A stretch of DNA of 40,505 nucleotides from the IMG/VR virus record IMGVR_UViG_3300032251_000005, positions 1-40,505 of that record. The stretch is one strand, 5' to 3'. The DNA is from a virus. Position numbers and translations under genes: made by a program. The notes below the pieces were generated by a model. It had not been told where the DNA came from and made no database searches. It saw nothing but the letters and a program-made list of their open reading frames with translations. Position 1 is the stretch's first letter, and each line of letters starts with the position of its first letter. This document shows, piece by piece, positions 22,741-36,619 of this stretch.

Positions 22741-22769
22741 TTGATAACGGAGTTAAACTCCACTATTAT
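22741..22769 (+). promoter_or_regulatory. early rightward promoter with operator in the spacer
   Basis: TTGATA (22741-22746), a spacer of exactly 17 and TATTAT (22764-22769) form a strong sigma70-type promoter. The perfect inverted repeat GGAGT-TAA-ACTCC (22749-22761) fills the spacer, where a bound repressor would block RNA polymerase. It drives the plus-strand accessory block starting at 22803. A GGTTGAGAC copy lies near the expected transcript 5' end. Confidence 0.7.
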
Positions 22770-23094: not shown

Positions 23095-23100
23095 CCACTT

Positions 23101-23141
23101 ATGGCCATTGTTATCAGTGGCCATAGTTGGCAATACTGCCA
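23101..23141 (+). ncRNA. two-hairpin intergenic element E1
   Basis: Hairpin 1 is ATGGCCATTG-TTAT-CAGTGGCCAT, ten pairs including one G-T. Hairpin 2 is TGGC-AATACT-GCCA. A leader copy (TGAGGTTGAGACT) follows about 12 bases later. First of five related elements. Confidence 0.7.
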
Positions 23142-23166
23142 GACATAAATAAATGAGGTTGAGACT

Positions 23167-23964
23167 ATGAAAAGCATACTAACAAAACGACAGGTAAAAA
23201 CCTTTAGTAAGGATCTGCCGAACAATCATAAAATCTATGTAAATGTTCGTTATGATGACGAATGCGGGAATGGCCATAATTCATTTGCAATTACTGGCGA
23301 CATTTATTCCAGCCGAACCAGTAAAGCGGATCGATATTTTGAAATGGGCGGTTGTATCCATGAACAAGTAGCAAAGCATTTTCCGGAATTAGCGCCTTTC
23401 ATCAAATGGCATTTAACTAGTTCCGATGGACCGATGCATTATGTAGCAAATACCATGTATCACGCGCGAACCTGTGACACGAAAGGGAAAAAGCCCGGTG
23501 ATCCGATTGCATTTAAAGAATATCTGCAATTCGGTAATTTCCCTATGACGTTCAGCGAACCAGAAAAAGGTTTTTTTGAATTCCTGCGCGGGTGCAAGTC
23601 TGATTTTTCAGATCTAGTTATTGAGCCTATTGAGTATGTCAACCGACCGGGTAATCATTATGATTTTGAGCCTAAATATACCTTTCAGGGATTTGCTAAT
23701 GACTGGTATAAATGCCCATTTGATTCTGGTAAAGAAGCGCATGAATGGCTAGAAGCTTTACAACAATATGGCGCTAAGTTTATTAAAAAGCCGTGCAAGT
23801 GGGCGCAAGCCGTGGAACCAGATTTAGAAGCTGCACGATCCTGCGCAATATGGCCAGACGCTACACTTGAACAATTGCAAGATGAAAAACTATTAGCTGC
23901 GCGGTTGCCTAGCTTGTTAGCTGAATTCAAAAAAGACATTGAAAGCCTAGGCTTTGTTTATTAA
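23167..23964 (+). CDS. conserved accessory protein of unknown function
   Basis: A protein of 265 residues, the largest in the accessory block. The N-terminal 130 residues include GHNSFAITGDIYSS, GGCIHEQVAKHFPEL, IKWHLTSSDGPMHYVANT. This is a domain I recognise from many proteobacterial phages and plasmids, but it has no assigned role. His, Cys and Asp residues in this domain could bind metal. The C-terminal part is helical. It has a leader motif and starts 25 bases after element E1. Confidence 0.8.
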   Translation: MKSILTKRQVKTFSKDLPNNHKIYVNVRYDDECGNGHNSFAITGDIYSSRTSKADRYFEMGGCIHEQVAKHFPELAPFIKWHLTSSDGPMHYVANTMYHARTCDTKGKKPGDPIAFKEYLQFGNFPMTFSEPEKGFFEFLRGCKSDFSDLVIEPIEYVNRPGNHYDFEPKYTFQGFANDWYKCPFDSGKEAHEWLEALQQYGAKFIKKPCKWAQAVEPDLEAARSCAIWPDATLEQLQDEKLLAARLPSLLAEFKKDIESLGFVY

Positions 23965-23982
23965 TTATTGGAGGTTGAGACT

Positions 23983-24168
23983 ATGAATAGCGGATTCAAA
24001 CTAACAATCACTTGTGATAATGCTGCATACAGTGACGGCTGGGAAATTGAAGTGGCCAGACAATTGCGTAACATTGCAGACAAACTAGAGCGCGGTCACG
24101 AATACGGCAATATAATGGATTACAACGGAAACAAAGTGGGTAATTTTTCCTACCATGTAGGCGAATAG
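23983..24168 (+). CDS. small conserved phage protein
   Basis: A protein of 61 residues from ATG 23983, fixed by GGAGGTTGAGACT. An N-terminal beta strand, a helix VARQLRNIADKLERGHEYG and a short C-terminal beta hairpin (YNGNKVGNFSYHV) recall small phage proteins of unknown role. No catalytic motif. Followed by element E2. Confidence 0.75.
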   Translation: MNSGFKLTITCDNAAYSDGWEIEVARQLRNIADKLERGHEYGNIMDYNGNKVGNFSYHVGE

Positions 24169-24178
24169 AATACCCCTA

Positions 24179-24221
24179 ATGCCCATTAGTTAGCTAGTGG
24201 GCATTGTGGGCCATTCTGCCC
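24179..24221 (+). ncRNA. two-hairpin intergenic element E2
   Basis: Hairpin 1 is ATGCCCATTAG-TTAG, closed by CTAGTGGGCAT. Here GCCC/GGGC replaces GGCC/GGCC of E1, so pairing is kept while sequence changes. Hairpin 2 is GGGC-CATTCT-GCCC. Confidence 0.7.
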
Positions 24222-24242
24222 GGTTTAATTGAGGTTGAGACA

Positions 24243-24671
24243 ATGCCAGCACGCAAACTAAAGTTTATTAATGATCCGGGCCATGGATGGCTGTCAGTCA
24301 GTCTAAAGGATATTATTGATCTAGATATCGTGGATAAAATATCAGCTTATAGCTATATGTCACCCAGTCGCGCCTATTTAGAAGAAGACTGCGATGCAAG
24401 CATATTTATCAATGCCGCCAAAGATGCGGGATGGAAACTTGAAATAAAAGAATCTTATTCTGATAACTCATGGAAAGGTCGGAATTGGCCTAGCTATAAT
24501 ATTTATTTTGTAAAGAATCCATTAATAACCGGATCAAAGGTCAAACTGAATGATGGATCAATCGCTACCTTTTATGATGATCCTGAAAAACCTTACTTGA
24601 TAACTGAATCTGGCCAGCGATACAAGGCACGCAAAGCTAATGCCTTACAGGCATTGAATCCGCCAGTCTAG
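24243..24671 (+). CDS. conserved DPGHGWL protein
   Basis: A protein of 142 residues from ATG 24243. The first half, with DPGHGWLSVSLKDI, ISAYSYMS, AYLEEDCDASIFINAAKDAG and a final SYNIYF, is a conserved fold present in many phages and plasmids. No biochemical role is known to me. The remainder (residues 96-142) is a small beta-rich extension. Starts at a leader motif, followed by element E3. Confidence 0.78.
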   Translation: MPARKLKFINDPGHGWLSVSLKDIIDLDIVDKISAYSYMSPSRAYLEEDCDASIFINAAKDAGWKLEIKESYSDNSWKGRNWPSYNIYFVKNPLITGSKVKLNDGSIATFYDDPEKPYLITESGQRYKARKANALQALNPPV

Positions 24672-24681
24672 TGATCCCTTT

Positions 24682-24721
24682 ATGCCTATTCGTTGAGTAG
24701 GCATAGCGGGCGATACTGCCC
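24682..24721 (+). ncRNA. two-hairpin intergenic element E3
   Basis: Hairpin 1 is ATGCCTATTC-GTT-GAGTAGGCAT and hairpin 2 is GGGC-GATACT-GCCC. The CCT/AGG pairs again differ from E1 and E2 while the stem is kept. Confidence 0.72.
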
Positions 24722-24742
24722 GGTTTAATTGAGGTTGAGACC

Positions 24743-24964
24743 ATGACAGAACAAGAATTTAATGAAATTTATGATTCTCGTTATCGGATTAAAGCTATAA
24801 GCATGTCAATGGATGGCTTTACCACTAGCGGCATTATTTTAGATGGCATTCATACTGCTACATCTGGCGAAAAATTCGTTTTTATTGATAACTTTTTTAA
24901 CCGCCATACTATTGATTCACTTATCAGAATAGAAAATACTCTAAATCCTTGGATTAATCAGTAA
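24743..24964 (+). CDS. small acidic/neutral hypothetical protein
   Basis: A protein of 73 residues behind TTGAGGTTGAGACC. Secondary structure looks like helix, beta hairpin, beta strand and short helix. No cysteine or catalytic motif and no recognised family. It lies between elements E3 and E4. Confidence 0.68.
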   Translation: MTEQEFNEIYDSRYRIKAISMSMDGFTTSGIILDGIHTATSGEKFVFIDNFFNRHTIDSLIRIENTLNPWINQ

Positions 24965-24971
24965 TCCCTTT

Positions 24972-25012
24972 ATGGCCATTGTTATCAGTGGCCATAGCGG
25001 GCGATACTGCCC
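24972..25012 (+). ncRNA. two-hairpin intergenic element E4
   Basis: Hairpin 1 is the same as in E1 (ATGGCCATTG-TTAT-CAGTGGCCAT). Hairpin 2 is GGGC-GATACT-GCCC. A leader motif follows after CTAACTAAA. Confidence 0.72.
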
Positions 25013-25033
25013 TAACTAAATGAGGTTGAGACC

Positions 25034-25333
25034 ATGCCAACATATACCCGCAACATCGGCCAGAATCGCGGCAGACCGCGAATATGGCTAGAGAAAGCCG
25101 TTTTACTTGATAACGGTTTTAACTATCACGACAAGTTCAAAGCTATCAACGAAGTAGATCGGATTGTCTTACAGGTTGATCCATTAGGTGATCGAACTGT
25201 TTCAGGTAGCGAATCAAGGCCAGTGATAGACCTGTCAGGCGCTGTTATTGAGCGCTCATTCAATACCGATAAGGTCAAAGCCGTTACAGTCCGTAAACTG
25301 TCACCCGGACGGCTCGAGCTAACACCGGCATAA
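25034..25333 (+). CDS. SymE/AbrB-like small protein
   Basis: A protein of 99 residues. RNIGQNRGRPRIWLEKAVLLDNGF, split here as RNIGQNRGRPR and a WLEKAVLLDNGF helix, is followed by beta strands with RTVSG and PVIDLSGAVI and a final strand. I have seen this pattern near phage methyltransferase genes. The short strands resemble the swapped-hairpin fold of AbrB and SymE. DNA or RNA binding is a cautious inference. An intrinsic terminator follows directly, so it may end a transcript. Confidence 0.62.
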   Translation: MPTYTRNIGQNRGRPRIWLEKAVLLDNGFNYHDKFKAINEVDRIVLQVDPLGDRTVSGSESRPVIDLSGAVIERSFNTDKVKAVTVRKLSPGRLELTPA

Positions 25334-25337
25334 ACAC

Positions 25338-25364
25338 AAGGCGCGCTTAGTCGCGCCTTTTTTT
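25338..25364 (+). terminator. intrinsic terminator in the accessory block
   Basis: An AAGGCGCG/CGCGCCTT stem with a six-base loop runs into seven T. It is the only classical terminator in the plus-strand block and divides it at 25364. Confidence 0.88.
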
Positions 25365-25393
25365 ATACCCGCTAGCTATAGCCATATTTTTAG

Positions 25394-25429
25394 TCAGGCC
25401 CCGCCTGGCTACGGTAAACGCTGGCCTGA
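25394..25429 (+). ncRNA. variant intergenic hairpin
   Basis: TCAGGCC pairs with GGCCTGA around a 22-base interior. It is followed by GAATTTAGCG and a leader motif, the same order as after element E5, so it probably has the same role with a different stem. Confidence 0.5.
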
Positions 25430-25453
25430 ATTTAGCGAATGGAGGTTGAGACC

Positions 25454-25720
25454 ATGAGTTATTTATATCGTTGTAATAAATGCAAACAGCGCAAAGCATT
25501 ACCCAGATTACATACTGACTATGTGCGCGCGCCTAAATGCCAGTGCGGCGAGTTGTTAACATACCGCGACAAGTGGCAAGAGCGCAAAAACAAGGAAAAC
25601 GTATGCAATTGTGACGGTTATCCGCACCCGCACCGCAAAGGTTCCGGGGTATGGTGTATTGAATCTGTGAGATTACCCACAGAATCAGACTATCAAGATA
25701 GACAATACGCCTACCGTTAA
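25454..25720 (+). CDS. zinc-binding phage protein
   Basis: A protein of 88 residues from ATG 25454, fixed by GGAGGTTGAGACC. It has CNKC (residues 7-10), CQC (33-35), CNC (53-55) and a later single Cys, with His residues in GYPHPHRKGSG. This gives one or two zinc sites. Small Cys/His-rich proteins like this are common in early regions of temperate phages. No role known. Confidence 0.75.
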   Translation: MSYLYRCNKCKQRKALPRLHTDYVRAPKCQCGELLTYRDKWQERKNKENVCNCDGYPHPHRKGSGVWCIESVRLPTESDYQDRQYAYR

Positions 25721-25774
25721 TACCCTGAATTTAGCTATACTTTCTATAACGTTAATCAAAGTGAGGTTGAGACC

Positions 25775-26221
25775 ATGATTACAGCAAAGAATGAATTCGA
25801 GACTATAAGCGCTTTTGAATCCCTAGCAGGTTCCAGTAGTGGAACATGGACTGACAGGGAAACAACGGCTGAGTTAATCCGGGTACTGGACTTGGTACAA
25901 AACCAGATCAGCACGGCTGAATATTATCAAGATTTAGCAAAATGCTCAGATGATGACACGCAAACAATGTATGAGATTCAACAGGAAGTTGCTGGCCATA
26001 TCGAATATTATGCGCCATTGCCTGACTGTTGTTCCGTTACCTTACAAGATAATGAATGGCAGGTAATCCCCTATATTGACGAAGATTTACCCAGACTTGA
26101 GGACATACCGGAAACTTATACTGAGGACTTGGTTTATCAGGTTAATGACCATGGCAATGTTAGCTTGTATAAATGGCATCCTAATTTCAGGGAATATCGT
26201 GAAGTCTGGGCTATGGTGTAA
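25775..26221 (+). CDS. acidic accessory protein
   Basis: A protein of 148 residues, strongly acidic, helical in its first half. The C-terminal part PETYTEDLVYQVNDHGNVSL and a following WHPNFREYREVW recall small conserved proteins of temperate phages. The charge would suit a DNA mimic such as an anti-restriction protein, but no sequence hallmark supports that. Leader motif before the start, element E5 after the stop. Confidence 0.7.
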   Translation: MITAKNEFETISAFESLAGSSSGTWTDRETTAELIRVLDLVQNQISTAEYYQDLAKCSDDDTQTMYEIQQEVAGHIEYYAPLPDCCSVTLQDNEWQVIPYIDEDLPRLEDIPETYTEDLVYQVNDHGNVSLYKWHPNFREYREVWAMV

Positions 26222-26235
26222 TCAGTAATCCCTTT

Positions 26236-26289
26236 ATGGTCATTCACTAGGCAGCGCCTGGCGAGTGGCCATAGTGGGTAATACTGCCC
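26236..26289 (+). ncRNA. two-hairpin intergenic element E5
   Basis: Hairpin 1 keeps the ATGGTCATTC/GAGTGGCCAT arms but carries an inserted inner stem AGGC-AGC-GCCT. Hairpin 2 is GGGT-AATACT-GCCC. The extra inner hairpin shows that the loop tolerates insertions while the outer stem is kept. Confidence 0.7.
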
Positions 26290-26310
26290 GAATTTAGCGA
26301 GGTTGAGACC

Positions 26311-26631
26311 ATGACGTACAAAACAGAATTCCCAGACTATGAGCTAGATGTATTAATCCCTGTCGGCTTTGAGGACGATAGCTGGCACAACGATGTAATG
26401 CCTAAATGGATTAATCCACAACTGAATTTAGCATTATGGATTAACTACCCAGAGGCAGAAAAAAGGGAAGGTCACGAAAAGAATCGGTTTTATCTCTATG
26501 AGATTGACAACAATGGCGATTATGTACGCACCATTCTTGTTGGTAAAGACAACGAATACGATCTGATTCTTATGGCCATCCTTGAAAAGTTACTGGCTAA
26601 TAGAGGCGTAAAACATGCCAGCAAAATTTGA
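26311..26631 (+). CDS. acidic accessory protein
   Basis: A protein of 106 residues, acidic, rich in Trp, Tyr and Asn. Beta strands (LNLALWINYPEAE, RFYLYEIDNNGDYVRTILVG) followed by a helix suggest a compact alpha/beta fold. Starts at a GAGGTTGAGACC leader. The next gene begins 17 bases before its stop. No family recognised. Confidence 0.68.
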   Translation: MTYKTEFPDYELDVLIPVGFEDDSWHNDVMPKWINPQLNLALWINYPEAEKREGHEKNRFYLYEIDNNGDYVRTILVGKDNEYDLILMAILEKLLANRGVKHASKI

Positions 26632-26794
26632 AGCACACTATAAGCCCAAGGAAACAAGGCCAGACAAGCCTATCCTGATTGGCCGTGCTCAATCACAAGC
26701 TAGAGTAAGCATCATTGAAGCACAAAATTTAGCGACCCAGCTTAATATAGCCATCCGGTTAGCTCTACAAGCTGAATCTGGCAAAACTTATTAA
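26615..26794 (+). CDS. small helical protein
   Basis: A protein of 59 residues: a basic Pro-rich N-terminus (KPKETRPDKP) and one long C-terminal helix (SIIEAQNLATQLNIAIRLAL). It starts inside the preceding gene and has an AGAGGCGTAAAAC site rather than the shared leader. It is one of the few genes in this block without the leader, which suggests translational coupling. Confidence 0.62.
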   Translation: MPAKFEAHYKPKETRPDKPILIGRAQSQARVSIIEAQNLATQLNIAIRLALQAESGKTY

Positions 26795-26818
26795 TCATTA
26801 TTAAATGAGGTTGAGACA

Positions 26819-27013
26819 ATGCACGTTATATCAGAAATGAATTCCAGTGGCGGAAAACATATAGTAGATGACTGGCCAGACTGGATCAGTCTATTGGATG
26901 ATGTAGTATTGCTGCGCAAACTGGGCTATATGGCTTTTGGTACGGAACTACGTGGCCAGTTTGTTATTGTCATGACAGCTAAACCTACACCTGTTTTATA
27001 CACGGTTCAGTAA
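26819..27013 (+). CDS. small hypothetical protein, last of the accessory block
   Basis: A protein of 64 residues after TGAGGTTGAGACA. The fold looks like beta-beta-helix-beta-beta. No family recognised. It ends eight bases before the convergent YkgJ-like gene without a clear terminator between them. Confidence 0.62.
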   Translation: MHVISEMNSSGGKHIVDDWPDWISLLDDVVLLRKLGYMAFGTELRGQFVIVMTAKPTPVLYTVQ

Positions 27014-27020
27014 GCCAACT

Positions 27021-27353
27021 CTATACGCGCTTATTCCTGCGTTTAGCGGCTTCAATCATCCTGTCCGGTATCATCCGTTTTATATGCGGCTGATGCCGGA
27101 CAGCTTTTAACAACGTCCTGCAATCAAACTCCCTGCATATCGCTGGTGCTCTATCGTGAATTGTGCAGCCTGTCACCCTGTCTAAATAAACACAATCCCC
27201 GTTTTCCTTGTGTTCCAGCACGCGCCCGCCATGATATTCAATGGTCTGGTAATCCTTTTCATCGTCACCCAGTTCCGGATGCAGATAGATGGCATCCCAT
27301 TGGCAACATGCATGGCAGTTACCACAAGGAACACGTTTAGTTTTAACGTTAAT
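27021..27353 (-). CDS. YkgJ-type zinc/iron-binding protein, apparent ATT start
   Basis: The open frame extends from 27021 to beyond 27353 with the CxxCxxCC-type cluster CGNCHACC (residues 10-17) and C-x7-C and C-x5-C motifs further on (DCVYLDRVTGC, ICREFDC). This is the full layout of YkgJ-family metal-binding proteins. Upstream of CGNCHACC the frame contains no ATG, GTG or TTG before a stop codon. ATT at 27353 lies nine bases after AGAGGA and gives 110 residues. GTG at 27221 would remove the metal cluster and is unlikely. A frameshift from the preceding gene or a sequence error is the alternative. Confidence 0.65.
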   Translation of the reverse strand: MNVKTKRVPCGNCHACCQWDAIYLHPELGDDEKDYQTIEYHGGRVLEHKENGDCVYLDRVTGCTIHDRAPAICREFDCRTLLKAVRHQPHIKRMIPDRMIEAAKRRNKRV

Positions 27354-27358
27354 AAAAT

Positions 27359-27721
27359 TTAGTCCTCTTTCTTTTGAACCGTAGTATTGACGCTGCCATC
27401 CAGCACCTTATCCAAAAATTCCTGATAGTTACATTCCACTGTAGTTAGCACTCGTTGCTGAAATTTAGCCATTATTGCTAAATCGTCAGAGTTATCTTGT
27501 ACTGTCGCATACATAATAGGTAATAAAATTTCGTGTAGCCGCACAATAATTCCGCCCAGACATGCCGCGCTATCTTTCATCTCACCAGACGTACCTTCAT
27601 ACTTAACGCTCGTAGTACCTTCTACGGATTTGAATCCCAGTTCATCCAATACAAAATAAAAAATATTTCGTGATCGTTCAGCTAATTCATAGGCTTCTTT
27701 ATCAGTTAATTTTTTTGTCAT
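27359..27721 (-). CDS. hypothetical helical protein
   Basis: A protein of 120 residues, helical and mildly acidic, from ATG behind GCGAGGTTGAGACC. The stop of the 36-residue gene upstream lies inside that leader. A conserved-looking Cys and a charged, unstructured C-terminus (VQKKED) were seen. No family recognised. The YkgJ-type frame begins just after its stop. Confidence 0.68.
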   Translation of the reverse strand: MTKKLTDKEAYELAERSRNIFYFVLDELGFKSVEGTTSVKYEGTSGEMKDSAACLGGIIVRLHEILLPIMYATVQDNSDDLAIMAKFQQRVLTTVECNYQEFLDKVLDGSVNTTVQKKED

Positions 27722-27725
27722 GGTC

Positions 27726-27836
27726 TCAACCTCGCTTTATGTTTTGCTGTATGAATTTACTTATGGCACAAAGATTATCATTAATTAAATATAGCTGAAT
27801 CAGGATTACAAACAGTAAAATTTCTGTTATGTACAT
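27726..27836 (-). CDS. 36-residue membrane peptide
   Basis: A protein of 36 residues with one transmembrane helix (ITEILLFVILIQLYLI) and a basic tail. It has the full GGAGGTTGAGACC leader. Its own TGA stop is the TGA within GAGGTTGAGACC of the next gene, so the two are coupled through the motif. Role unknown. Confidence 0.62.
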   Translation of the reverse strand: MYITEILLFVILIQLYLINDNLCAISKFIQQNIKRG

Positions 27837-27851
27837 GGTCTCAACCTCCAA

Positions 27852-28031
27852 TTATTCATCATCGAGTATATGATCTAAGACATTTAGCATTGGTTCACGA
27901 ACATGAGCAATTTTTTTCTGACAATAATGTTTACTCATATCAAGATTGTAGGCGAACCAATAACTATCATCCGCTGTTACCACTATAATCCTTTCATGAC
28001 ATTGCTTGCAGTCCTTTTCATATTTCTGCAT
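27852..28031 (-). CDS. small Cys-containing protein
   Basis: A protein of 59 residues with CKQC at residues 8-11 and one later Cys plus His, a likely small zinc ribbon, and an acidic C-terminus. A weak GGTTGGAACG precedes ATG. Frame and composition look genuine. No family recognised. Confidence 0.58.
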   Translation of the reverse strand: MQKYEKDCKQCHERIIVVTADDSYWFAYNLDMSKHYCQKKIAHVREPMLNVLDHILDDE

Positions 28032-28399
28032 CGTTCCAACCCAATCACTCTATACTTTCTTTGGACATAGCAGTAGCTATTGTTATGCCCTGTAAAGCAG
28101 TGATTAGTTACAGATTTAGATGCTGGCTTAGGAAACGGCTGGCTCGGAGCAAAGCAGGAACAAGCCCTTGTCTCGTGACGACGAGAAACAAAGGTGTTCC
28201 GCCTTGCCCGACCCAGCCTGATGCCAACTTGAGGAATCCGTATGGTCGTCACAGTGTTCCGCTACTATGCAGATACCAGGCGCAGCCTGATACCCTGTGT
28301 CAACGTCCGGAACTTAGCAGCCGTTTTGTGCCATGACACGCCCATCCCTTGCACATAAGACACTGGCCGGAACGGTTCTCCCAAGCATAACCAGTGAAT
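28032..28399. other. structured noncoding region beside the helicase gene
   Basis: About 370 bases without a credible gene. An apparent 89-codon frame at 27983-28252 is not convincing. The region carries many GGAAC/GTTCC arms (near 28157, 28195, 28255, 28309 and 28370) and two CAGCCTGAT-CC stretches, and it contains the double-stem element at 28137-28218. A replication origin next to the helicase, or a regulatory RNA, is possible. Confidence 0.45.
28137..28218. ncRNA. double-stem structured element
   Basis: Outer stem GGCTGGCTCGG with CCGACCCAGCC (10 of 11 pairs) encloses an inner hairpin at 28157-28200. Its arms are GGAACA/TGTTCC, CCTTGT/ACAAAGG and CTCGT/ACGAG, with a GACG loop. Such nested, near-perfect pairing over 82 bases is unlikely to be chance. 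Confidence 0.55.
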
Positions 28400-28630
28400 C
28401 TATTCATTTTGGAACGCATATATCAATTCGTCAAGCAGATCATCAAATGGCACGTTACGGAACCGGCCCAGGAATATCATTTTCTTGTGATTATCGGCAG
28501 CATGTCTGGCAACATGGAAACGCAGGTTATCCTTATCAAACCAGATATTGACCGCACAGACCTTGGCTCGCAGATAACACTCAACAATGCTTGTTCGCAC
28601 GGCTAGCGGCACTTCACTGTATTTGTACAT
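28400..28630 (-). CDS. small protein after the helicase gene
   Basis: A protein of 76 residues from ATG 28630 with AAAGGTTGAGT before it, a shortened shared leader. A TTG two codons upstream is less likely. The start overlaps the helicase stop by 17 bases. Basic N-terminal half with one Cys, acidic C-terminal helix (VPFDDLLDELIYAF). No family recognised. Part of the replication operon by position. Confidence 0.65.
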   Translation of the reverse strand: MYKYSEVPLAVRTSIVECYLRAKVCAVNIWFDKDNLRFHVARHAADNHKKMIFLGRFRNVPFDDLLDELIYAFQNE

Positions 28631-30110
28631 ACTCAACCTTTAGTTGTAGCCAGAACTGATGCATGTCCAGATGCAAATCCGGGGTAAACTTGTGGATCGC
28701 AAAGCCCAGAAAGATATCATCAGTTGGCGGCTTGCTCATGTCCTTGGGGGTGCTGATGTTGGCATAAAACACCGTGCGCCGGTAGCGGAGTTTTTCTGTC
28801 TTGTGCCATGGGTTGTAAATATATCTATCCACATTGCGGGACAGATATTCTCGAAAACGTGACGGATCGCACAAATCCCGCCAGCGTAAATCCTTAATTT
28901 CAATCATCCAGCGCTGATTCGTGTAGCGTATCCACTCATTACTGATACGCTTGCCGGATTCTGGCCAGTACCAGCCTGTAGTTAGCCAGTTATCCGCATG
29001 GATTTCCGGCACCAGCGAACGGAAAAATAAAGTCTTGCCTATGCCAGATGGCCCTATCAGGACAAGCAGGGAGGATTTCTCGACACCCTTTGGTTTATAC
29101 AGGCCATCCAGCGCCATAAAAAACCAGCGCCGGAGAAAAGCTCCTGCGGCGTCTGAGGTTATATTATATAAATCTAATTGAGCCATGAAAGCTGGCCATC
29201 TATCCAGCCCATCCCATGTTTTTGACTCAAGCCAGGCATGAACTGGGTGATAATTGTGCCCCGGTTCATTTGCATAGCGCTTGATATATTCCCTAAGCAG
29301 GGCTTGCGGGATGGCCAGCTTTTCAATTGCGCACCGGCTGGCTATCTCTGAAAAATTTTCATCCCCGGTTATCCGGAAAGCCGTGCGGTTCATGTCCGGC
29401 CAGAATATATCTGTCGTGTCGTGAAGTAAGTTATATTTGATTTCAATCCGGGATTTTTTAAGCAGGACTTTGAAATTCTCGTAAGTCGGCTGCAATCTAA
29501 TCGCGCCAGCCTTGCTGATGGTGTAGTGGGGCCAGTCAACACCATGGCGCGTATTGGCGAGCACGGCACCATCGTACAGGTCATGCAGTATTGTGATTTT
29601 CTGATTGGTTTTTTTCGCCAGCTTGGATAAGACCGTATTGATCTGGTACGGGTGCATCCCTTCAAATTTAGCGAGTTCGTCTATAACCCTGTGTGCGTCC
29701 ATCGGTTCGCGCACCTTGGCAATCATGCTGCGTAGCGTCATATTAATGCTGCGCGGCTCATACTGGGCCAGCTTGGCTTCCAGCCGGTTATCACCATGCA
29801 AGCGCAGTTCCCTTGCCAGATGGTGGGCTGTCAGTCCATGGTCTGGCCTGATACGGTTCCAGCGCTCACGGATATCCGGGATTTTTCCTTTGAGTGCTGG
29901 GCTGTCACTGGCCCAGAGTATAAACGCATCCAGCCCAGTGCCTGCCGTAGCATGATGACAGGCATCCATTAAATCCAGCATGGCTTGCTGCGCGCTGGGC
30001 GATTGAATGAAATTGGCTACATCAATGCTGCGTAGATACTCATTCAATTCCGTGCTTGTCAGGATGCCGTAAAAATTCTGGCCCGAAGTCTCTTTCTTGT
30101 TCGTTTGCAT
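28614..30110 (-). CDS. VapE-type superfamily 3 helicase / replication protein
   Basis: A protein of 498 residues. The C-terminal half has Walker A GPSGIGKT (residues 353-360) followed by LFFRSLVP, then WMIEIKDL as the acidic second motif and DRYIYNPW with RRTVFYANIS, which together mark virulence-associated E (VapE) proteins. The N-terminal half contains a PriCT-like helix (IPDIRERWNRI). It probably opens and primes the phage origin for host polymerase. Its start lies 71 bases inside the RusA gene. Its ribosome site is weak. Confidence 0.83.
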   Translation of the reverse strand: MQTNKKETSGQNFYGILTSTELNEYLRSIDVANFIQSPSAQQAMLDLMDACHHATAGTGLDAFILWASDSPALKGKIPDIRERWNRIRPDHGLTAHHLARELRLHGDNRLEAKLAQYEPRSINMTLRSMIAKVREPMDAHRVIDELAKFEGMHPYQINTVLSKLAKKTNQKITILHDLYDGAVLANTRHGVDWPHYTISKAGAIRLQPTYENFKVLLKKSRIEIKYNLLHDTTDIFWPDMNRTAFRITGDENFSEIASRCAIEKLAIPQALLREYIKRYANEPGHNYHPVHAWLESKTWDGLDRWPAFMAQLDLYNITSDAAGAFLRRWFFMALDGLYKPKGVEKSSLLVLIGPSGIGKTLFFRSLVPEIHADNWLTTGWYWPESGKRISNEWIRYTNQRWMIEIKDLRWRDLCDPSRFREYLSRNVDRYIYNPWHKTEKLRYRRTVFYANISTPKDMSKPPTDDIFLGFAIHKFTPDLHLDMHQFWLQLKVEYVQIQ

Positions 30111-30480
30111 ATTTGCTTATACGTAATACGACTGACCCACCAGACACTGCCTGGCGCCGGCGGATAATATGCAAGTCATCCACCAGATAATCATCCGTCC
30201 AGATTCTGGCATAGGTCAGCGCATCCAGTACGCCCTTGCTGTAGTTATCAATATCACGTTTGCGCCGGTCTGGCGGAAACAGATGCATTTCTACATTGAC
30301 AGGCTCATTAATCACGGCATGAACCGGAAACTGTTTGCGGATTGTTCTGACGGCTTCTGTTCGAAAATGGCGGCCTTCCATAGAAAGTAGGGTACGCTGG
30401 CGCAATCCTTTCTTGGTTTTCAGGACAACATGCCGCCAGTATTGGTTAACTGATGGCGGCCATGGCAATAAAATAATCAT
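30040..30480 (-). CDS. rusA: RusA-type Holliday junction resolvase
   Basis: A protein of 146 residues. PWPPSVNQYWRH at the N-terminus and PPDRRKRDIDNYSKGVLDAL in the middle are hallmarks of RusA, including the catalytic Asp pair of RKRDIDN and a further acidic stretch (WTDD). It cuts branched DNA formed during replication and recombination before packaging. Overlaps the gene before it by four bases and the helicase gene by 71. Confidence 0.92.
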   Translation of the reverse strand: MIILLPWPPSVNQYWRHVVLKTKKGLRQRTLLSMEGRHFRTEAVRTIRKQFPVHAVINEPVNVEMHLFPPDRRKRDIDNYSKGVLDALTYARIWTDDYLVDDLHIIRRRQAVSGGSVVLRISKYANEQERDFGPEFLRHPDKHGIE

Positions 30481-30716
30481 GCCGAATGCGTTTTGCTTTC
30501 AATATCGACCAGCAAATTCTGCACGGCTTCCGTAATTGTCTGGCCACGGCCTGTACCCACTAAAGACTGAGCACCAGCTTTGCCGGGAGGCGTGAAAGCA
30601 TCCGCCATATAGGAACGTGAATTCACTTCATGTATTTTGGCTGGATCGGCTGGCGCGCAGTTGATACTTATCCAGTAACCATCACCCAGTAACTGATCAA
30701 CAATTTCTGTAATCAT
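30477..30716 (-). CDS. small protein upstream of RusA
   Basis: A protein of 79 residues. The stop of the upstream gene abuts this ATG, and its own stop overlaps the RusA start, so the three are coupled. The sequence (YWISINCAPADPAKIHEVNS, then a helix near the end) has no motif I recognise. Confidence 0.65.
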   Translation of the reverse strand: MITEIVDQLLGDGYWISINCAPADPAKIHEVNSRSYMADAFTPPGKAGAQSLVGTGRGQTITEAVQNLLVDIESKTHSA

Positions 30717-31286
30717 TTATCGGCTCTCTGCAATCCATTCTTCAATGATTTTTCTAGCCCATTTCGGAACATACTTATTATTCTCGAAAGTGGATATATA
30801 ACTAGCCGGTATATTTAAGGCTTTAGCTAATTTATTCTGGCTCATGCCGATATCTTCACGAATAATTTTTAACGATGTATTGGTGGAAACAAAATCAGGA
30901 TGCTGATTGTGCATATGCTGAAAAAGGTTGTTGAAATGTCGATTACAACAAGGACAAACGCCATTAGCTACACGAGTTTTTATACGTTGTTTTGTCTTTT
31001 TCTCAACTTCTGCTTTAGCTGCCTCTTTATCAGCGCGCTGCCTTTCTTTATTAGCATCATCAAGCGCACGGTGTTTACGCAATTTTTCTTTTTTTAATTC
31101 AGCTTTTAGCCTGTCGTTTTCTGACGTGCCATACCCCCAAGATACTTGGCAATATGGGCAATGCCAATAACCACCTTGTTCATGTTTTAGATCGATGTAT
31201 CGTTCACTTAATGCGTATGTTCCACCGCATTTACCACAAGTAAAATCAGCAAGCGTGACTTGAAAATTTAACTTTACAGCGCCCAT
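30717..31286 (-). CDS. zinc-ribbon, C2H2 finger and XRE HTH protein
   Basis: A protein of 189 residues from ATG 31286 behind CAGGGGGAATA. It has a zinc ribbon (C17/C20 and C43/C46), a Lys/Glu/Arg-rich coiled coil (55-105), a CPCC finger with His at 124 and 129, and a C-terminal XRE-type HTH (MSQNKLAKALNIPASYISTF). This three-part make-up is found in phage early regions. A regulator or DNA-repair adaptor is likely. A palindrome (31306-31321) lies 20 bases upstream and could be its operator. Confidence 0.75.
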   Translation of the reverse strand: MGAVKLNFQVTLADFTCGKCGGTYALSERYIDLKHEQGGYWHCPYCQVSWGYGTSENDRLKAELKKEKLRKHRALDDANKERQRADKEAAKAEVEKKTKQRIKTRVANGVCPCCNRHFNNLFQHMHNQHPDFVSTNTSLKIIREDIGMSQNKLAKALNIPASYISTFENNKYVPKWARKIIEEWIAESR

Positions 31287-31305
31287 TATTCCCCCTGATG
31301 TTTCA

Positions 31306-31321
31306 TGTTCCACATGGAACT
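31306..31321. promoter_or_regulatory. palindromic operator-like site
   Basis: TGTTCCACATGGAACT has 6-bp arms (GTTCCA/TGGAAC) and lies 20 bases upstream of the zinc/HTH gene. It resembles operators of XRE proteins and, more loosely, parS-type sites. Autoregulation is the simplest reading. Confidence 0.5.
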
Positions 31322-31385
31322 ATTTCCTTAACTTTACTTAAATTAGGTGGGCCATCCTTGGCCCTTTGCGTCATCCATGACATAG

Positions 31386-31607
31386 CTAAACTTTGTCCTT
31401 AAACCAGTAGCAGCGTTTATGAACAGGCCAGACTTTGCCAATTGTGCATTTTCCGTTACCAGTCTCATGATCACCGCGCACAAACAGGCATTCCCAGCAG
31501 CGCTTGCCTGACTCGCTGAAACCATAGCCACTATCGAACGTTTTATGTACTGGCCATGGGTCATGGTCTGGCCGCTGTTGATACTGCCATTTGAGATGTG
31601 AACTCAT
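31386..31607 (-). CDS. small Cys-rich protein after the methyltransferase
   Basis: A protein of 73 residues from ATG 31607. It overlaps the methyltransferase end by 47 bases. Cys residues in RCWECLFVRGDHE, KCTIG and KRCYWF with His suggest one zinc site. Such proteins often follow phage cytosine methyltransferases. Role unknown. Confidence 0.65.
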   Translation of the reverse strand: MSSHLKWQYQQRPDHDPWPVHKTFDSGYGFSESGKRCWECLFVRGDHETGNGKCTIGKVWPVHKRCYWFKDKV

Positions 31608-32322
31608 AGCCATCCATTATGCTTTGTCCTAACAATTGTGGTATCTGCGGCACTACCGCATTGCCGATGGCCTTAAGTCTGTCCATCCGGGCGGAAAGCC
31701 CATCAACCACTCGCTGAATGTCGGGTTCAATGTCCCAGACTTCGTTTCCACTGCGTAATCCAGCCGTTCCCATGATCTGTTTCTGCCATCCTTGCGGATC
31801 ACTGTCGGGCCACTGCCTTTCCAGTCGTTGGCTGTCGGCGTAGGATACAATCCACACTCTTTCACGGACATGCCACGCGTTAAGGGACACAGCCGGAAGT
31901 ACAAATGCCCACCAGGCGTAGCCTGTGTCTGCCAAGTCAGAAATAACTTTGTCGATCCCCAGATTGAGGAAGCCAGTAACATTCTCGGCAATAACCCATC
32001 GCGGCCTGACAGCTTTAATAATTCGATACATTTCTGGCCAGAGATCACGGTCATCTGCCGTGCCTTCTCGCTCCCCTGCGTTACTGTATGGTTGGCAAGG
32101 GAATCCCCCTGCGAGAAGATCGATAGTTGTGAGTCCATCCTGCGTTAAGCGCTCGCCGGTTATGTCTGCTACATCGTTGTAAATGGGAATGTCCGGCCAG
32201 TGCTTTTCCAGTACCAGCCGACAATAGGGATCGATCTCGCATAGCGCGCTGATATCCATTCCGGCACGCGACAGGCCCAATGCCATGCCGCCGATACCGG
32301 AAAACAGATCAAGCACGCGCAT
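31561..32322 (-). CDS. orphan C5-cytosine DNA methyltransferase
   Basis: A protein of 253 residues. Motif I FSGIGG (residues 7-12), motif IV GGFPCQPYS with catalytic C76, motif VI ENV (113-115), motif VIII RERVWIV (153-159) and motifs IX-X with LKAIGNAVVPQIPQL are complete. The target-recognition part between VIII and IX is very short. No restriction endonuclease is nearby, so it probably protects phage DNA from host restriction or tunes its own genes. Its ATG follows the SSB-like stop directly. The second frame inside it is listed separately. Confidence 0.92.
   Translation of the reverse strand: MRVLDLFSGIGGMALGLSRAGMDISALCEIDPYCRLVLEKHWPDIPIYNDVADITGERLTQDGLTTIDLLAGGFPCQPYSNAGEREGTADDRDLWPEMYRIIKAVRPRWVIAENVTGFLNLGIDKVISDLADTGYAWWAFVLPAVSLNAWHVRERVWIVSYADSQRLERQWPDSDPQGWQKQIMGTAGLRSGNEVWDIEPDIQRVVDGLSARMDRLKAIGNAVVPQIPQLLGQSIMDGYEFTSQMAVSTAARP
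31653..32138 (-). CDS. long overlapping frame inside the methyltransferase
   Basis: An open frame of 161 codons on the same strand, shifted one base, wholly inside the methyltransferase. Its translation has a structured, protein-like pattern: GLYPTPTANDWKGSG, a Ser/Thr/Leu-rich middle with IWGSTKLFLTWQ and LNPTFSEWLMGFPPGWTDL at the end. I recall similar sequences annotated next to or over phage methyltransferases. This may be genuine dual coding. It may instead be a conserved by-product of methyltransferase codons that has been annotated repeatedly. No ribosome site was found. Confidence 0.4.
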   Translation of the reverse strand: MDSQLSIFSQGDSLANHTVTQGSEKARQMTVISGQKCIELLKLSGRDGLLPRMLLASSIWGSTKLFLTWQTQATPGGHLYFRLCPLTRGMSVKECGLYPTPTANDWKGSGPTVIRKDGRNRSWERLDYAVETKSGTLNPTFSEWLMGFPPGWTDLRPSAMR

Positions 32323-32805
32323 TTAATTAAAAGGGATATCGTCATCAAAAGCTGGATTAGGATTACCAGCCTGCGCGGGCGCGCTCTTGAAAGAGGGTGG
32401 AGCAGCCTGATGGGCAGCAGGTGGCACTTCGGAGGTTGAGACCGGAGGAACTTGACCTACTGCTTGTGGGACAGGCTGCCCCGTAGCTTGTACTGGTCTG
32501 ACACGGATACCGCCAGTCTGTTTGCTGCCAAACCAGATGTTAGGTTCATTATAGAGCACAATTTGCTTGCCGATCCAGCCATCTGTGTCATCCGTGCCCA
32601 TGGCCTGCGTCATGATTTCTGCATTCGTCCGGTTAATTACCATGCCTTTATCTGATTCATGGAAATGCACCACGGGCTTGGAGTCCTGCGGATCACCATT
32701 ACCACCTACATCTTCAACCCGGATATCTTTAATTGTGACCATAATGCCATTGCCACAATCTTCCTTTTTCAGATAATTACTTGGAAATGCTGCCCCTATT
32801 TTCAT
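32323..32805 (-). CDS. SSB-like single-stranded DNA-binding protein
   Basis: A protein of 160 residues behind AAAGGAGC. Residues 1-100 are a beta-rich OB-like domain with GKQIVLYNEPNIWFGSK and a final IRVRPV. Then come a Pro/Gln/Ala linker and an acidic tip DDDIPFN, which matches the SSB tail that binds partner proteins. It should coat ssDNA during replication and bring in repair enzymes. An antisense copy of the leader motif falls inside the linker (32431-32443). Confidence 0.82.
   Translation of the reverse strand: MKIGAAFPSNYLKKEDCGNGIMVTIKDIRVEDVGGNGDPQDSKPVVHFHESDKGMVINRTNAEIMTQAMGTDDTDGWIGKQIVLYNEPNIWFGSKQTGGIRVRPVQATGQPVPQAVGQVPPVSTSEVPPAAHQAAPPSFKSAPAQAGNPNPAFDDDIPFN
32431..32443 (+). 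repeat. stray leader motif antisense to the SSB-like gene
   Basis: GGAGGTTGAGACC, identical to the leader before at least three genes, occurs here with no start codon after it and antisense to coding DNA. At 13 bases a chance match in 40 kb is unlikely. It is a possible recombination scar or a site with a function other than translation. Confidence 0.5.
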
Positions 32806-32969
32806 TGGTGTTTTGCTCCTTTGAGTAATTCGCTGGTACTGACCCAGCCCCAGTCCTTAATTTGCATGTACCATCGGCCAGCTTTCCGGGCCATGGCTTC
32901 AATATCGAACAAACGAACGTCTGCCTTGTTAGCAATGGCAATCATTAGATCAAGCTGTTGCAGACTCAT
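32802..32969 (-). CDS. small early protein
   Basis: A protein of 55 residues from ATG 32969, preferred because GGGGGCATTAAGT lies before it. ATGs further up give up to 67 codons. Mostly helical (QQLDLMIAIANKADVRLFDI, EAMARKAGRWYMQ). It overlaps the previous gene by 20 bases and the SSB-like gene by four. No family recognised. Confidence 0.6.
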   Translation of the reverse strand: MSLQQLDLMIAIANKADVRLFDIEAMARKAGRWYMQIKDWGWVSTSELLKGAKHQ

Positions 32970-33165
32970 ACTTAATGCCCCCATGTGGATAAAGCCCCGC
33001 TTCATGCACTTCTACAATGTGCTTTGCATCGTCAAGTTGCTCGAAAACGCCTAGCAACTCACGCCGATACCATGCAGAGTAAGCAACCTTACCCCGCACC
33101 CAAGACCGGCTGATTTTGTATTCACGGCGATGAATGTAATATTTATCGCCTTTCTGCCATTGCAT
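32950..33165 (-). CDS. small basic early protein
   Basis: A protein of 71 residues behind GGAAGGCAAGCT. Basic and beta-rich with Tyr/Trp (KYYIHRREYKISRSWVRGKV), then a helix. It may bind nucleic acid, but no family was recognised. Its stop lies inside the next gene. Confidence 0.6.
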   Translation of the reverse strand: MQWQKGDKYYIHRREYKISRSWVRGKVAYSAWYRRELLGVFEQLDDAKHIVEVHEAGLYPHGGIKYESATA

Positions 33166-33181
33166 AGCTTGCCTTCCATGG

Positions 33182-33391
33182 TTAGCGCACCAGCCTGTAA
33201 CGAGCGAACCGCACTTTATGCCCGTACTGATTCGTGCTTTCTTCCGGTATCGTATTTATTTCAATACCTTTATGGCGCAAGTCCCATATCCTTGCGCCTA
33301 ATCTCAAAATTCCATACCTGATCATGTCCAGTTGTGTTATCCCTTTACGGTTGCGCTTGAGTTCACGCATTACAATCGTTTCATGATTCAT
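33182..33391 (-). CDS. small HTH protein (HTH_39-like)
   Basis: A protein of 69 residues. ATG 33391 overlaps the previous stop by four bases (ATGA). ITQLDMIRYGILRLGARIWDL and the following RHKGIEINT match the winged-HTH pattern of small phage proteins that set base-pairing direction of a helix-turn-helix (x-L-x-A-R-I-x-D-L-R). It is likely a regulator of the replication operon. Confidence 0.7.
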   Translation of the reverse strand: MNHETIVMRELKRNRKGITQLDMIRYGILRLGARIWDLRHKGIEINTIPEESTNQYGHKVRFARYRLVR

Positions 33392-33618
33392 GATTTCGCC
33401 CATTGCTTGATAAAATTCCAGTTAAGGTCAGGACGAAAATCAGTTTCAGTCAGTCTGTTTTCAGACAAGGCTACAAGCTGAGGCACTCGGCTCTTGGGTA
33501 CTTGCGTCTTGCGCCAGTAACAAATCGCTGGCGCAGTAACATGCATTTCCTTTGCTAATTCATTCAGGCCGCCACACATTTCAATGCACGCCTCAATTGC
33601 CTCGACTGGTTCCACCAT
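33388..33618 (-). CDS. Cro/YdaS-like repressor
   Basis: A protein of 76 residues from ATG 33618 behind AAGGACGTTA. ATGs further upstream lack a ribosome site. LNELAKEMHVTAPAICYWRK is the helix-turn-helix of YdaS/Cro proteins, and VPQLVALSENRLTETDFRPD is the usual end. As first gene of the leftward operon it takes the place of Cro and probably binds the repeats at 33709-33729. Confidence 0.82.
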   Translation of the reverse strand: MVEPVEAIEACIEMCGGLNELAKEMHVTAPAICYWRKTQVPKSRVPQLVALSENRLTETDFRPDLNWNFIKQWAKS

Positions 33619-33708
33619 TAACGTCCTTAAAGATAAATAAAGTGCTGTTAAATCGGATTTAAGCAGGATTGAAAAAATAAACAATTGTCACACTGGCATC
33701 ACATGACA

Positions 33709-33729
33709 TTAGCGTGACGTTAGCGTGAC
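33709..33729. promoter_or_regulatory. operator-like direct repeat in the leftward early promoter region
   Basis: TTAGCGTGAC occurs twice with an 11-base period (33709-33718, 33720-33729), so both copies lie on one DNA face. GTCAC and ATGAC half-sites occur 10-25 bases nearer the Cro-like gene. The place 90 bases upstream of that gene suits a repressor operator. Confidence 0.6.
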
Positions 33730-33740
33730 AGACATTAAGG
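33730..33740. repeat. 11-bp repeat flanking the integrase module (left copy)
   Basis: AGACATTAAGG is repeated at 35685-35695 on the other side of the excisionase and integrase genes. A related GACATTAAAGG lies on the minus strand near the integrase stop. These are possible integrase or excisionase arm sites. Confidence 0.4.
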
Positions 33741-33756
33741 GAAATTTATTTAAGAT

Positions 33757-33781
33757 TAAAAAAAACCCTGCGGATGCAGGG
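33757..33781 (-). terminator. intrinsic terminator after the excisionase-like gene
   Basis: On the minus strand CCCTGC-ATCC-GCAGGG is followed by eight T. It separates the integrase and excisionase transcript from the early operon promoter. Confidence 0.85.
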
Positions 33782-33788
33782 CTGGGAA

Positions 33789-34013
33789 TTACTGATAAAC
33801 GGCCTTTTTGCTTCTCTCTCTTTCAATGGCCTGAATAAAATCATCACGTTTAATATATTTTTTATTCCCTATGCAATACGTCTTGATATCCAAACGCCCG
33901 GATGCAATATAATTTCTTAATGTCCGGATCGTTATACTTCTAAGCAGGGCGGCCTGTTTATAATTTAACAGTGCTTCTGTTCCCAGCAATTGCGCAATTT
34001 CTCTATCTACCAT
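33789..34013 (-). CDS. excisionase-like HTH protein
   Basis: A protein of 74 residues behind GGGAGCGCGGC. ALLNYKQAALLRSITIRTLR, then NYIASGRLDIKTYCIGNKKY and IKRDDFIQAIE, is the MerR/excisionase-type winged helix (HTH_17). It lies next to the integrase and a terminator. It probably bends attachment-site DNA to favour excision. Confidence 0.72.
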   Translation of the reverse strand: MVDREIAQLLGTEALLNYKQAALLRSITIRTLRNYIASGRLDIKTYCIGNKKYIKRDDFIQAIERERSKKAVYQ

Positions 34014-34047
34014 GCCGCGCTCCCGTATATATTAATTATCGTTGGAG

Positions 34048-34068
34048 AAGGGGAGCTTTGCTCCCCTT
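34048..34068. terminator. hairpin between integrase and excisionase genes
   Basis: AAGGGGAGC-TTT-GCTCCCCTT is a perfect 9-bp hairpin. There is no T-run on either side, so it may be a weak terminator or a message-stabilising stem. Confidence 0.5.
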
Positions 34069-34107
34069 ATAATTAAATATACCTTAGTGCCCTTTAATGT
34101 CAAACGT

Positions 34108-35508
34108 CTACTTTTTTCTTATTGCGACTACGGTCGCACTTTCGCCAATACGATTCGCATTTTTCAGGATGATAGTCACGATTTTTTCTGAGGCTGTTTG
34201 CAGTGGATCAACCACATCAGTATCTCGCCATTCTGTGATAGCCGTATCATTATTAATATAATGTTTGCTGGTCACGTCTGAATCAGTTTCATGGTTCATA
34301 AGCTGTTTAATCGTGGTCTTTTCAATCCCATTGGCTGCGGCAATCTGGCTGAATGTCCGGCGCAAGTCATGATTAGAAATCCTGCGGCCCAGCCCCTTGG
34401 CTACCATCGAAATCAACTTGGCACGCTGACCCCGGTTAGCCTGCGGGAACACCATATCATCAGGTGCCGCCTGGCTTGCGCGTGAGCGCAGACGCTGCGC
34501 CACATACAGGGGAAGGGGAAAGGTTTTTTCTTTATGCTTGCCCTTGGTCAGCATACTGAATTCGCCTTTTCCCAGATTGATATTTTTCCAGCGCAGATTG
34601 CTGGCCGTGTCACCCGCACGCATCCCGGTTAGGAACAGGAATAACAGGAAATCGGTATCGCGGCTGTCTGCCATGGACTCCACTACATCAAACCATTTTG
34701 CAGTTTCCTTTTTGCGCAAGCTGTTTGTGCGCGGCTGATAATCCATATCCTTGATCTTGGTTTTCATCAATTGCTCGGCAGGGTTTAACTGCTGAAAAAC
34801 TGGCGCATAATCCTTGGTCAGAATGTTATTCTTGGCCCAGTTATAAAGCATGTTGATATGTCGCACGGCAGACATAGCGCCCTTGCTGTTGTGAATAGCA
34901 TCCAGCATCAGATCACGATCCAGAATGGCCGGAAAAGGCATCTGATATTCTTCCGGGAAATGGCGCGGCAAAACTTCCCGGTAAGTCTCAATAGAGCTGG
35001 GGCTTAATTTTTCCTGCTTATCCCGTAGATAAAGCTGCATGATTTCCTCGGCGCTCAGGCTCGCCTTATCCGTGTCACTCATGCGATGGATTGCATTGTC
35101 ATTGATATCATGGAACCGGGAAACGCGCTTGGCACTCGGCGCACGGCTGCCACGGGTTTCAGCCCCTTCACGCACGGCTTTCAATTGGGTCTGATTCATG
35201 CCCATCAATCGGGCAGTATAGGCGCGGGCATCATCCATGCTGATGGCCTCGACAGTGCTAAAGCCATCAGGGTTGACAGAAAACCGTGTTGTTTTCCCTT
35301 CCACGGTCAGGACGGCACATAACGACTTGTGGCCCCGGTCAGTGACATAACAGCGCAGCTTGGGCATCTGCTTGTCGAACACATAATAACGTTTGCCGGG
35401 AAGTGCCTTGGGTAGCTTGGCCAGTGTGTTCTTCGTAAAGGTCATGTACTTGTTGATCTCTTTGCCTGCAATCGTTGCAGGGATGGTGTCACCCAGTTTC
35501 TTGCTCAT
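34108..35508 (-). CDS. int: tyrosine recombinase integrase
   Basis: A protein of 466 residues. The catalytic set is visible: R297 in TGMRAGD, a Lys near 322-324 in TKGKHKEK, H380 and R383 in NHDLRRTF, H406 in LMNHETD and Y417 in SKHYINN. The N-terminal third carries the arm-binding domain expected in P4/lambda-type enzymes and the middle a core-binding SAM-like domain (LSPSSIETYREVLPRHF). It should integrate and, with the excisionase, excise the prophage. It has the full GGAGGTTGAGACA leader of the early genes. Confidence 0.93.
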   Translation of the reverse strand: MSKKLGDTIPATIAGKEINKYMTFTKNTLAKLPKALPGKRYYVFDKQMPKLRCYVTDRGHKSLCAVLTVEGKTTRFSVNPDGFSTVEAISMDDARAYTARLMGMNQTQLKAVREGAETRGSRAPSAKRVSRFHDINDNAIHRMSDTDKASLSAEEIMQLYLRDKQEKLSPSSIETYREVLPRHFPEEYQMPFPAILDRDLMLDAIHNSKGAMSAVRHINMLYNWAKNNILTKDYAPVFQQLNPAEQLMKTKIKDMDYQPRTNSLRKKETAKWFDVVESMADSRDTDFLLFLFLTGMRAGDTASNLRWKNINLGKGEFSMLTKGKHKEKTFPLPLYVAQRLRSRASQAAPDDMVFPQANRGQRAKLISMVAKGLGRRISNHDLRRTFSQIAAANGIEKTTIKQLMNHETDSDVTSKHYINNDTAITEWRDTDVVDPLQTASEKIVTIILKNANRIGESATVVAIRKK

Positions 35509-35684
35509 TGTCTCAACCTCCAGTTGCCTGTAAATACTGCCAGAATTTAACGATTAATTTAATTATAGTGAAGCCGCCTTAAATTGCAAGATATATCTGT
35601 GTCTGAATATTTGTGTTCCGGAGTGATTCGGGAACACATCGGGACAGTGAAACAGGGGTGATATCAGGATTATGCTGGGATGAT

Positions 35685-35695
35685 AGACATTAAGG
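35685..35695. repeat. 11-bp repeat flanking the integrase module (right copy)
   Basis: Second AGACATTAAGG, identical to 33730-33740, directly before a GGAAAACCTTAAT inverted repeat. Confidence 0.4.
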
Positions 35696-35843
35696 AAAAC
35701 CTTAATATTCCTTAATCAATCAATCACTTACGCGATGTAAGCTGTTGATCGGCAAAGGGGTGAATTAAGTCATAAGTAAGTCCCAGTTAAATCCCAGTTC
35801 TAATAAATTACATACAAAACAAGCACTTATGTTTTCACTGCTA

Positions 35844-35862
35844 TTCCGGTACGCATCCGGAA
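35844..35862. other. possible attP core
   Basis: TTCCGG and CCGGAA flank the 7-base centre TACGCAT. This is the usual layout of the crossover site for tyrosine recombinases. It could instead be an operator. Host-junction sequence would decide. Confidence 0.4.
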
Positions 35863-35871
35863 CACAGGAAT

Positions 35872-36063: not shown

Positions 36064-36094
36064 GAGAAAAACTCCTTTTCAATTTAATACATTT

Positions 36095-36106: not shown

Positions 36107-36142
36107 TAGTGTGTATATATCAATGGATAAAGGGGAATATGG

Positions 36143-36616: not shown

Positions 36617-36619
36617 TGA

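Follow-up and report, generated by a model that had tools for sequence, protein, structure and literature searches.

Covarying two-hairpin elements between small phage genes resemble T7 RNase III sites and may be intercistronic processing sites

The virus record IMGVR_UViG_3300032251_000005 from IMG/VR is a complete record of 40,505 bases, which we analyzed at full length and refer to as the window. It carries five copies (E1-E5) of an element made of two adjacent RNA hairpins, each copy preceding a small gene. Comparing these elements with the RNase III sites of phages T7 and T3, we infer with a confidence of roughly 70% that each of them is an intercistronic processing site for the host RNase III. 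With somewhat less assurance, we regard it as probable that they belong to an uncatalogued class of RNA elements present in many unrelated phages. In such an element, a minimal RNase III substrate would be joined at the cut to a pre-formed hairpin that caps the new 5' end, and a single host enzyme could thereby convert a polycistronic transcript into single-gene mRNAs sealed at both new ends.

A first-pass annotation of the window had described five two-hairpin elements between the small genes, and all five are indeed there. Each is placed between a stop codon and a shared leader with the ribosome-binding site, GAGGTTGAGAC(n)ATG, whose GAGGT is the Shine-Dalgarno sequence. The layout is constant: hairpin 1 (H1) of 12-13 base pairs (bp), a single unpaired junction base and hairpin 2 (H2) of 5 bp with an AUAC tetraloop. 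The one exception is E2, where the loop of H2 is AUUC and the fifth pair is mismatched. The features are as follows, the predicted cuts being derived from the register of the T7 site R1.1 discussed below.

23099..23126, + strand: E1 H1 (12 bp), UUAUGGCCAUUG-UUAU-CAGUGGCCAUAG, from fold and alignment
23127..23141, + strand: E1 junction base (23127) and H2, UGGCA-AUAC-UGCCA; predicted cut 23127/23128
24177..24206, + strand: E2 H1 (13 bp), from fold and alignment
24207..24221, + strand: E2 junction base and H2, GGGCC-AUUC-UGCCC; predicted cut 24207/24208
24680..24706, + strand: E3 H1 (12 bp), from fold and alignment
24707..24721, + strand: E3 junction base and H2, GGGCG-AUAC-UGCCC; predicted cut 24707/24708
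24970..24997, + strand: E4 H1 (12 bp), identical in sequence to E1 H1, from fold and alignment
24998..25012, + strand: E4 junction base and H2, GGGCG-AUAC-UGCCC; predicted cut 24998/24999
26234..26274, + strand: E5 H1 (12 bp), whose loop bears a second stem; contains GGUCAUUC/GAGUGGCC like T7 R1.1
26275..26289, + strand: E5 junction base and H2, GGGUA-AUAC-UGCCC; predicted cut 26275/26276

The H2 consensus given in the annotation, GGGC-nATACT-GCCC, is exact for E3 and E4 and needs amending for E1 (TGGC/GCCA), E2 (CATTCT loop) and E5 (GGGT/GCCC wobble). The extra stem it reported in the loop of E5 is real; the apical stem and loop of H1 are variable, and copy F4 also has an additional stem there. 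No terminator U-run follows any of the E1-E5 stems, as the annotation had said, and we rejected an intrinsic-terminator reading; only a lax scan calls two of them (E2 and E3) terminator-like. Two constant features had escaped it, namely an invariant U·G pair within H1 and the fixed single-base junction.

Every copy folds on its own; the z-scores range from -4.6 to -5.6, and none of the shuffles was as stable. In the alignment of E1-E5, 98.8% of cells pair, five pairs are changed on both sides and eight cells are compensatory, and these pairing and covariation values were reached by only 0-5 of 500 shuffles. A covariance model of the five copies (R2) found exactly these five in the 40,505 bases, with 63-74 bits and all on the + strand; it found no sixth copy, and the other strong matches were these near-palindromes read on the opposite strand. 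Searching IMG/VR for the leader, we came upon IMGVR_UViG_3300050175_000044 (G017), which is collinear with the window and whose terminase is 92% identical. It holds five further copies, at 10166, 10708, 11297, 11691 and 12289. Across the ten copies, both partners have changed in 10 of 17 pairs, and there are 24 compensatory cells; shuffles gave 7.6 ± 1.9 such cells, and none of them (0 of 500) reached the observed value. The conservation of base pairing by covariation is real, which upholds the original claim, and we rejected a DNA-binding reading because the elements covary as RNA pairs.

The internal U·G pair of H1 is present in 21 of 21 copies that were not selected by a pattern fixing it, a count in which some copies (F1-F5 included) were found by a model already containing U·G and the descriptor copies come from contigs chosen for another copy. 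Its G lies 10 nucleotides before the first base of H2 in 16 of the 21, 9 nucleotides in three and 8 in two. The pair sits about one helical turn from the base of H1.

In tblastn searches of G017, no match was found for the window proteins encoded at 23167-26631 and genes on both flanks were matched, indicating that the inter-element genes were replaced and the elements kept. One might therefore see in the repeats recombination sites or cassette boundaries through which phages exchange small genes. The conserved elements and flanks around differing genes are in line with this, as are the whole H1 common to E1 and E4 and the upstream sequence TAATCAGTAATCCCTTT common to E4 and E5. However, it is pairing rather than sequence that is conserved, with a U·G of RNA type, copies elsewhere are too diverged for homologous recombination, and exchange can be a by-product of repeats. 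We consider this explanation very improbable. The cassette boundaries proposed at first hold as a description, since non-homologous genes lie between the elements and homologous ones on the flanks, but nothing that we found points to a role in recombination.

In a more distant relative, G005, a single copy of the same layout lies near the end of the contig; at 16.5 bits (E 0.1), it is weak when taken alone. This contig ends in a 91-base direct repeat, and immediately beyond the join comes a homologue of the gene on the island's right side. In the capsid relatives G002, G006 and G014-G016 the element was not found. One of these, G015 (L048/L049), has a palindrome, CCCTCCGGAGGG, counted six times over both strands, whose hairpin would include a Shine-Dalgarno sequence.

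Beyond these relatives, two motif scans of IMG/VR revealed the element in about 20 additional phages, most of them unrelated; the second scan constrained no more than CAUU/AGUG, the spacing and a portion of H2. In nearly every case a Shine-Dalgarno sequence and start codon follow directly. Among 38 distinct pattern matches, 26 pair at 6-7 of the 7 H1 positions left free by the motif, where a simple binomial predicts about 0.5 such matches. At the free positions of these 26, 178 of 182 are paired, compared with 97 ± 5.5 when partners are shuffled. The matches also contain their own control: a Shine-Dalgarno sequence, start codon and open reading frame follow within 46 nucleotides in 23 of the 26 well-paired matches and in none of the 12 others. 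Matches attributed to chance and used as control were L147, L148, L153, L154, L156, L158, L162, L164, L166/171/177 and L167 as well as L173, L174, L180, L183, L184 and L188. A pattern-free descriptor identified more copies within the same contigs. The phages bearing the element have terminases of PHROGs 9, 38, 2 and 5653 and variously encode DNA polymerases, helicases, a CI-like repressor or an integrase; the element is therefore not confined to one lineage. As the IMG/VR scans fixed letters, the class is under-sampled. The covariance search for copies in relatives that the annotation had proposed is thus answered by further copies, the five of G017 among them.

Other searches returned little. 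No family of Rfam 15 matches the elements at gathering score. At the DNA level, neither the 4.4-kb region, E1, the L144 element nor a 17-element query gave more than chance matches in named phages; one of these, in Ab1-TPeters, lies inside a gene. Two early pattern scans gave none or chance sites only, and a search for kin by helicase and terminase queries gave few or none, with none among genome contigs. Stilesk and KASIA, phages with relatives of a 265-amino-acid protein, carry intergenic hairpins of another kind and were rejected. In Shewanella phage KASIA (L062), these hairpins (2206-2227 and 2923-2949) have a CAUU/AGUG apex, lie inside the terminal repeat and match the model with 17.9 and 14.4 bits over H1 only. 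A likely two-hairpin element with a two-base junction is located in a named, cultured phage, Sphaerotilus phage vB_SnaP-R1 (L196), at 1257-1330 just before gp2.

This distribution bears on the idea that an RNA-binding protein recognizes the element and controls how the small genes are translated, which would make it an RNA-level equivalent of the ESAS plus SAS arrangement in cluster K mycobacteriophages. In both systems a shared ribosome-binding leader with an optional upstream inverted repeat precedes many small non-structural genes (PMC3203893). The sequences differ, the 13-bp SAS being GGGATAGGAGCCC and the leader here GAGGTTGAGAC, and the 17-bp ESAS repeat is without support for RNA pairing (PMC3203893), whereas our elements covary strongly and have a second hairpin. 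Moreover, the element is carried by phages with unrelated terminases and replication genes, and a phage-coded binder would have to be shared along with it. A dedicated phage RNA-binding protein, and with it the protein-binding sites offered by the annotation, is therefore quite unlikely. A host enzyme, on the other hand, fits an element common to unrelated phages.

RNase III sites between genes are a textbook feature of T7. We compared a covariance model built from only the ten copies of the window and G017 (R3) with the reference phages T7 and HK022 and then, as confirmation, with T3. In T7, R3 matched the upper stems of R1.1 (5861-5884, 19.5 bits, E 6e-4), R1.3 (6419-6447, 14.2 bits) and R0.5 (1441-1465, 6.3 bits). 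In T3, the top three + strand matches all fall within annotated RNase III recognition sites (R1.3, R0.5 and R1.1), which make up 244 of the 6701 bases scanned. Eight pairs are identical between E5 and T7 R1.1 (GGUCAUUC-GCAA-GAGUGGCC). In R1.1, the G of the U·G pair lies 10 nucleotides before the cut, and in R0.3 and R1 a U·G lies at the same distance from the presumed cut. R1.1 is cut at nucleotide 5887 (PMC8708148). Applying this register to the elements places the predicted cut exactly between the junction base and H2.

H1 also has the size of a minimal substrate. A 12-bp stem with a tetraloop suffices for single-strand cleavage by RNase III, and loss of the last pair of the distal box abolishes cleavage (reviewed in PMC8708148); in H1, the U·G and the next U-A lie at the distal end. 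H1 resembles in this respect uR1.1 delta-1 (PMC8708148), being a natural hairpin of that size with U·G where the distal box is expected, whereas uR1.1 delta-1 is an artificial truncation of R1.1 and lacks an H2. With T7 and T3 sites the elements share the intercistronic position just before a ribosome-binding site, the occurrence of several per early transcript and the sequence and structure of the upper stem; cut as predicted, they would also have the R1.1 register. They differ in that T7 and T3 sites mostly consist of upper stem, internal loop and lower stem, while the elements have no lower stem and, beginning at the predicted cut, a hairpin of its own, H2. Of the three functions that the annotation had considered, RNA processing is the best supported, through the match to T7 and T3 RNase III sites and a U·G register that fits the R1.1 cut.

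We propose that RNase III would read H1 as a minimal substrate and cut the 3' strand precisely between the junction base and H2. H1 would then be left at the 3' end of the upstream message, hindering 3' exonucleases, and the downstream message would begin directly in H2 with the 5'-monophosphate left by the enzyme. RNase III is known to leave a 5'-phosphate (PMC8708148). A 5'-monophosphate is the end to which RNase E tethers, 5' secondary structure hinders this tethering, and both RppH and RNase E require single-stranded 5' ends (PMC3997798). As a 5'-terminal hairpin, H2 would keep RNase E off and leave the Shine-Dalgarno sequence free a few bases on. A polycistronic transcript would in this way be converted into stable single-gene messages as in the early region of T7, with H2 replacing the T7 lower stem. 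That H2 becomes a 5'-terminal hairpin would account for its presence and for its starting point. As the first structure at a processed 5' end, H2 would resemble the mRNA-stabilizing 5'-terminal stem-loops of the ompA type (Emory et al., 1992, as cited in PMC3997798). Going by that citation, ompA-type stem-loops are located at transcription starts, whereas H2 would be exposed by the cut.

The hairpins might also stabilize or insulate messages without any RNase III cut, H1 blocking 3' exonucleases after another nuclease has acted and H2 shielding the ribosome-binding site. Such a role would suit their stable folding and their location between stop codon and Shine-Dalgarno sequence, and hairpins at mRNA ends are known to stabilize (PMC7509114). 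We nevertheless find it unlikely, because it leaves unexplained the invariant U·G, its fixed distance from H2 and the match to T7 and T3 RNase III sites.

Several points speak against RNase III processing. In the elements H2 follows H1 directly, and there is neither the asymmetric internal loop nor the lower stem seen in T7 sites. T7 R0.5 and R1.3 have no U·G 10 nucleotides from their presumed cuts. Roughly one in two genes preceded by the shared leader has no element. E. coli RNase III has no strong sequence consensus (PMC8708148). Finally, our yardsticks were T7 and T3 sites and the E. coli enzyme, and the RNase III of this phage's host may have other preferences.

Single hairpins lying between a stop codon and a Shine-Dalgarno sequence among small early genes were seen in Vibrio phage ICP2 (L199; 6308-6383, 6737-6818, 8702-8774 and 10520-10597). 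Each has an internal U·G and none has an H2. Judged by sequence and fold, they are possibly RNase III sites of the T7 type, and their H1-only form suggests that T7-type sites may grade into the two-hairpin form.

Rfam does not contain this proposed cut-and-cap design, which unrelated phages share, and a limited search of open-licence literature found no description of it, although an earlier one is possible. If our reading is true, a simple signature (U·G with its G ten bases before a GG-N-AAU-type hairpin) predicts RNase III processing in uncultured phages. It would also explain how many separately translated small genes are fitted into one transcript and make the dependence of RNase III specificity on the distal-box U·G directly testable. 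The same signature marks a region of rapidly exchanged accessory genes.

The proteins encoded in the window include a head-tail adaptor (portal), terminase, head protein, integrase and an internal virion protein with an endolysin domain; by these, the virus is an integrase-bearing, podovirus-like phage. Rightward small genes to which no function is assigned lie between 22.7 and 27.0 kb, flanked by leftward blocks.

23167..26631, + strand: small-gene run, in which the starts at 23167, 24243, 24743, 25034 and 26311 are each preceded by an element
23155..23169, + strand: shared leader with its Shine-Dalgarno GAGGT, and start codon ATG of the gene that follows E1

The annotation had placed the elements just before the shared leader. 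This is correct for all five, but the leader also precedes window genes without an element, on both strands. Outside the island it occurs as GAGGTTGAGA without hairpins at 27848, 27733 and 35520 on the - strand and at 37098 and 38044 on the + strand. Other phages have shared leaders of their own, for example AACCTTGGAGGGTT in G005 and GAGGATTACATCATG in L160.

A clear intrinsic terminator lies in the middle of the small-gene run at 25338-25366 (25338-25359 when drawn narrowly), after the gene following E4. Its position downstream of E4 could be taken to favor an antiterminator RNA of the put type, which in phage HK022 binds RNA polymerase; put likewise consists of two adjacent stem-loops with about one base between them. 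Yet put differs in size, bulges, copy number, position and sequence: it is about 70 nucleotides long with bulged stems, occurs as one copy near each early promoter and acts over 10 kb (PMC9378689), whereas here up to five copies stand before individual genes. In HK022 24000-40000, the early region, R3 found only a 16.9-bit AT-rich single hairpin and nothing with an H2, and put itself was not located there. Of all the explanations weighed, we hold this one to be the most improbable.

At the ends of the window there is no exact terminal repeat, and some 60 bases at 40-100 recur at 40406-40465. Upstream of the entire rightward run, at 22741-22769, lies a sigma70-like promoter (TTGATA-17-TATTAT) whose spacer contains the inverted repeat GGAGTTAAACTCC; it looks like a repressor-controlled early promoter.

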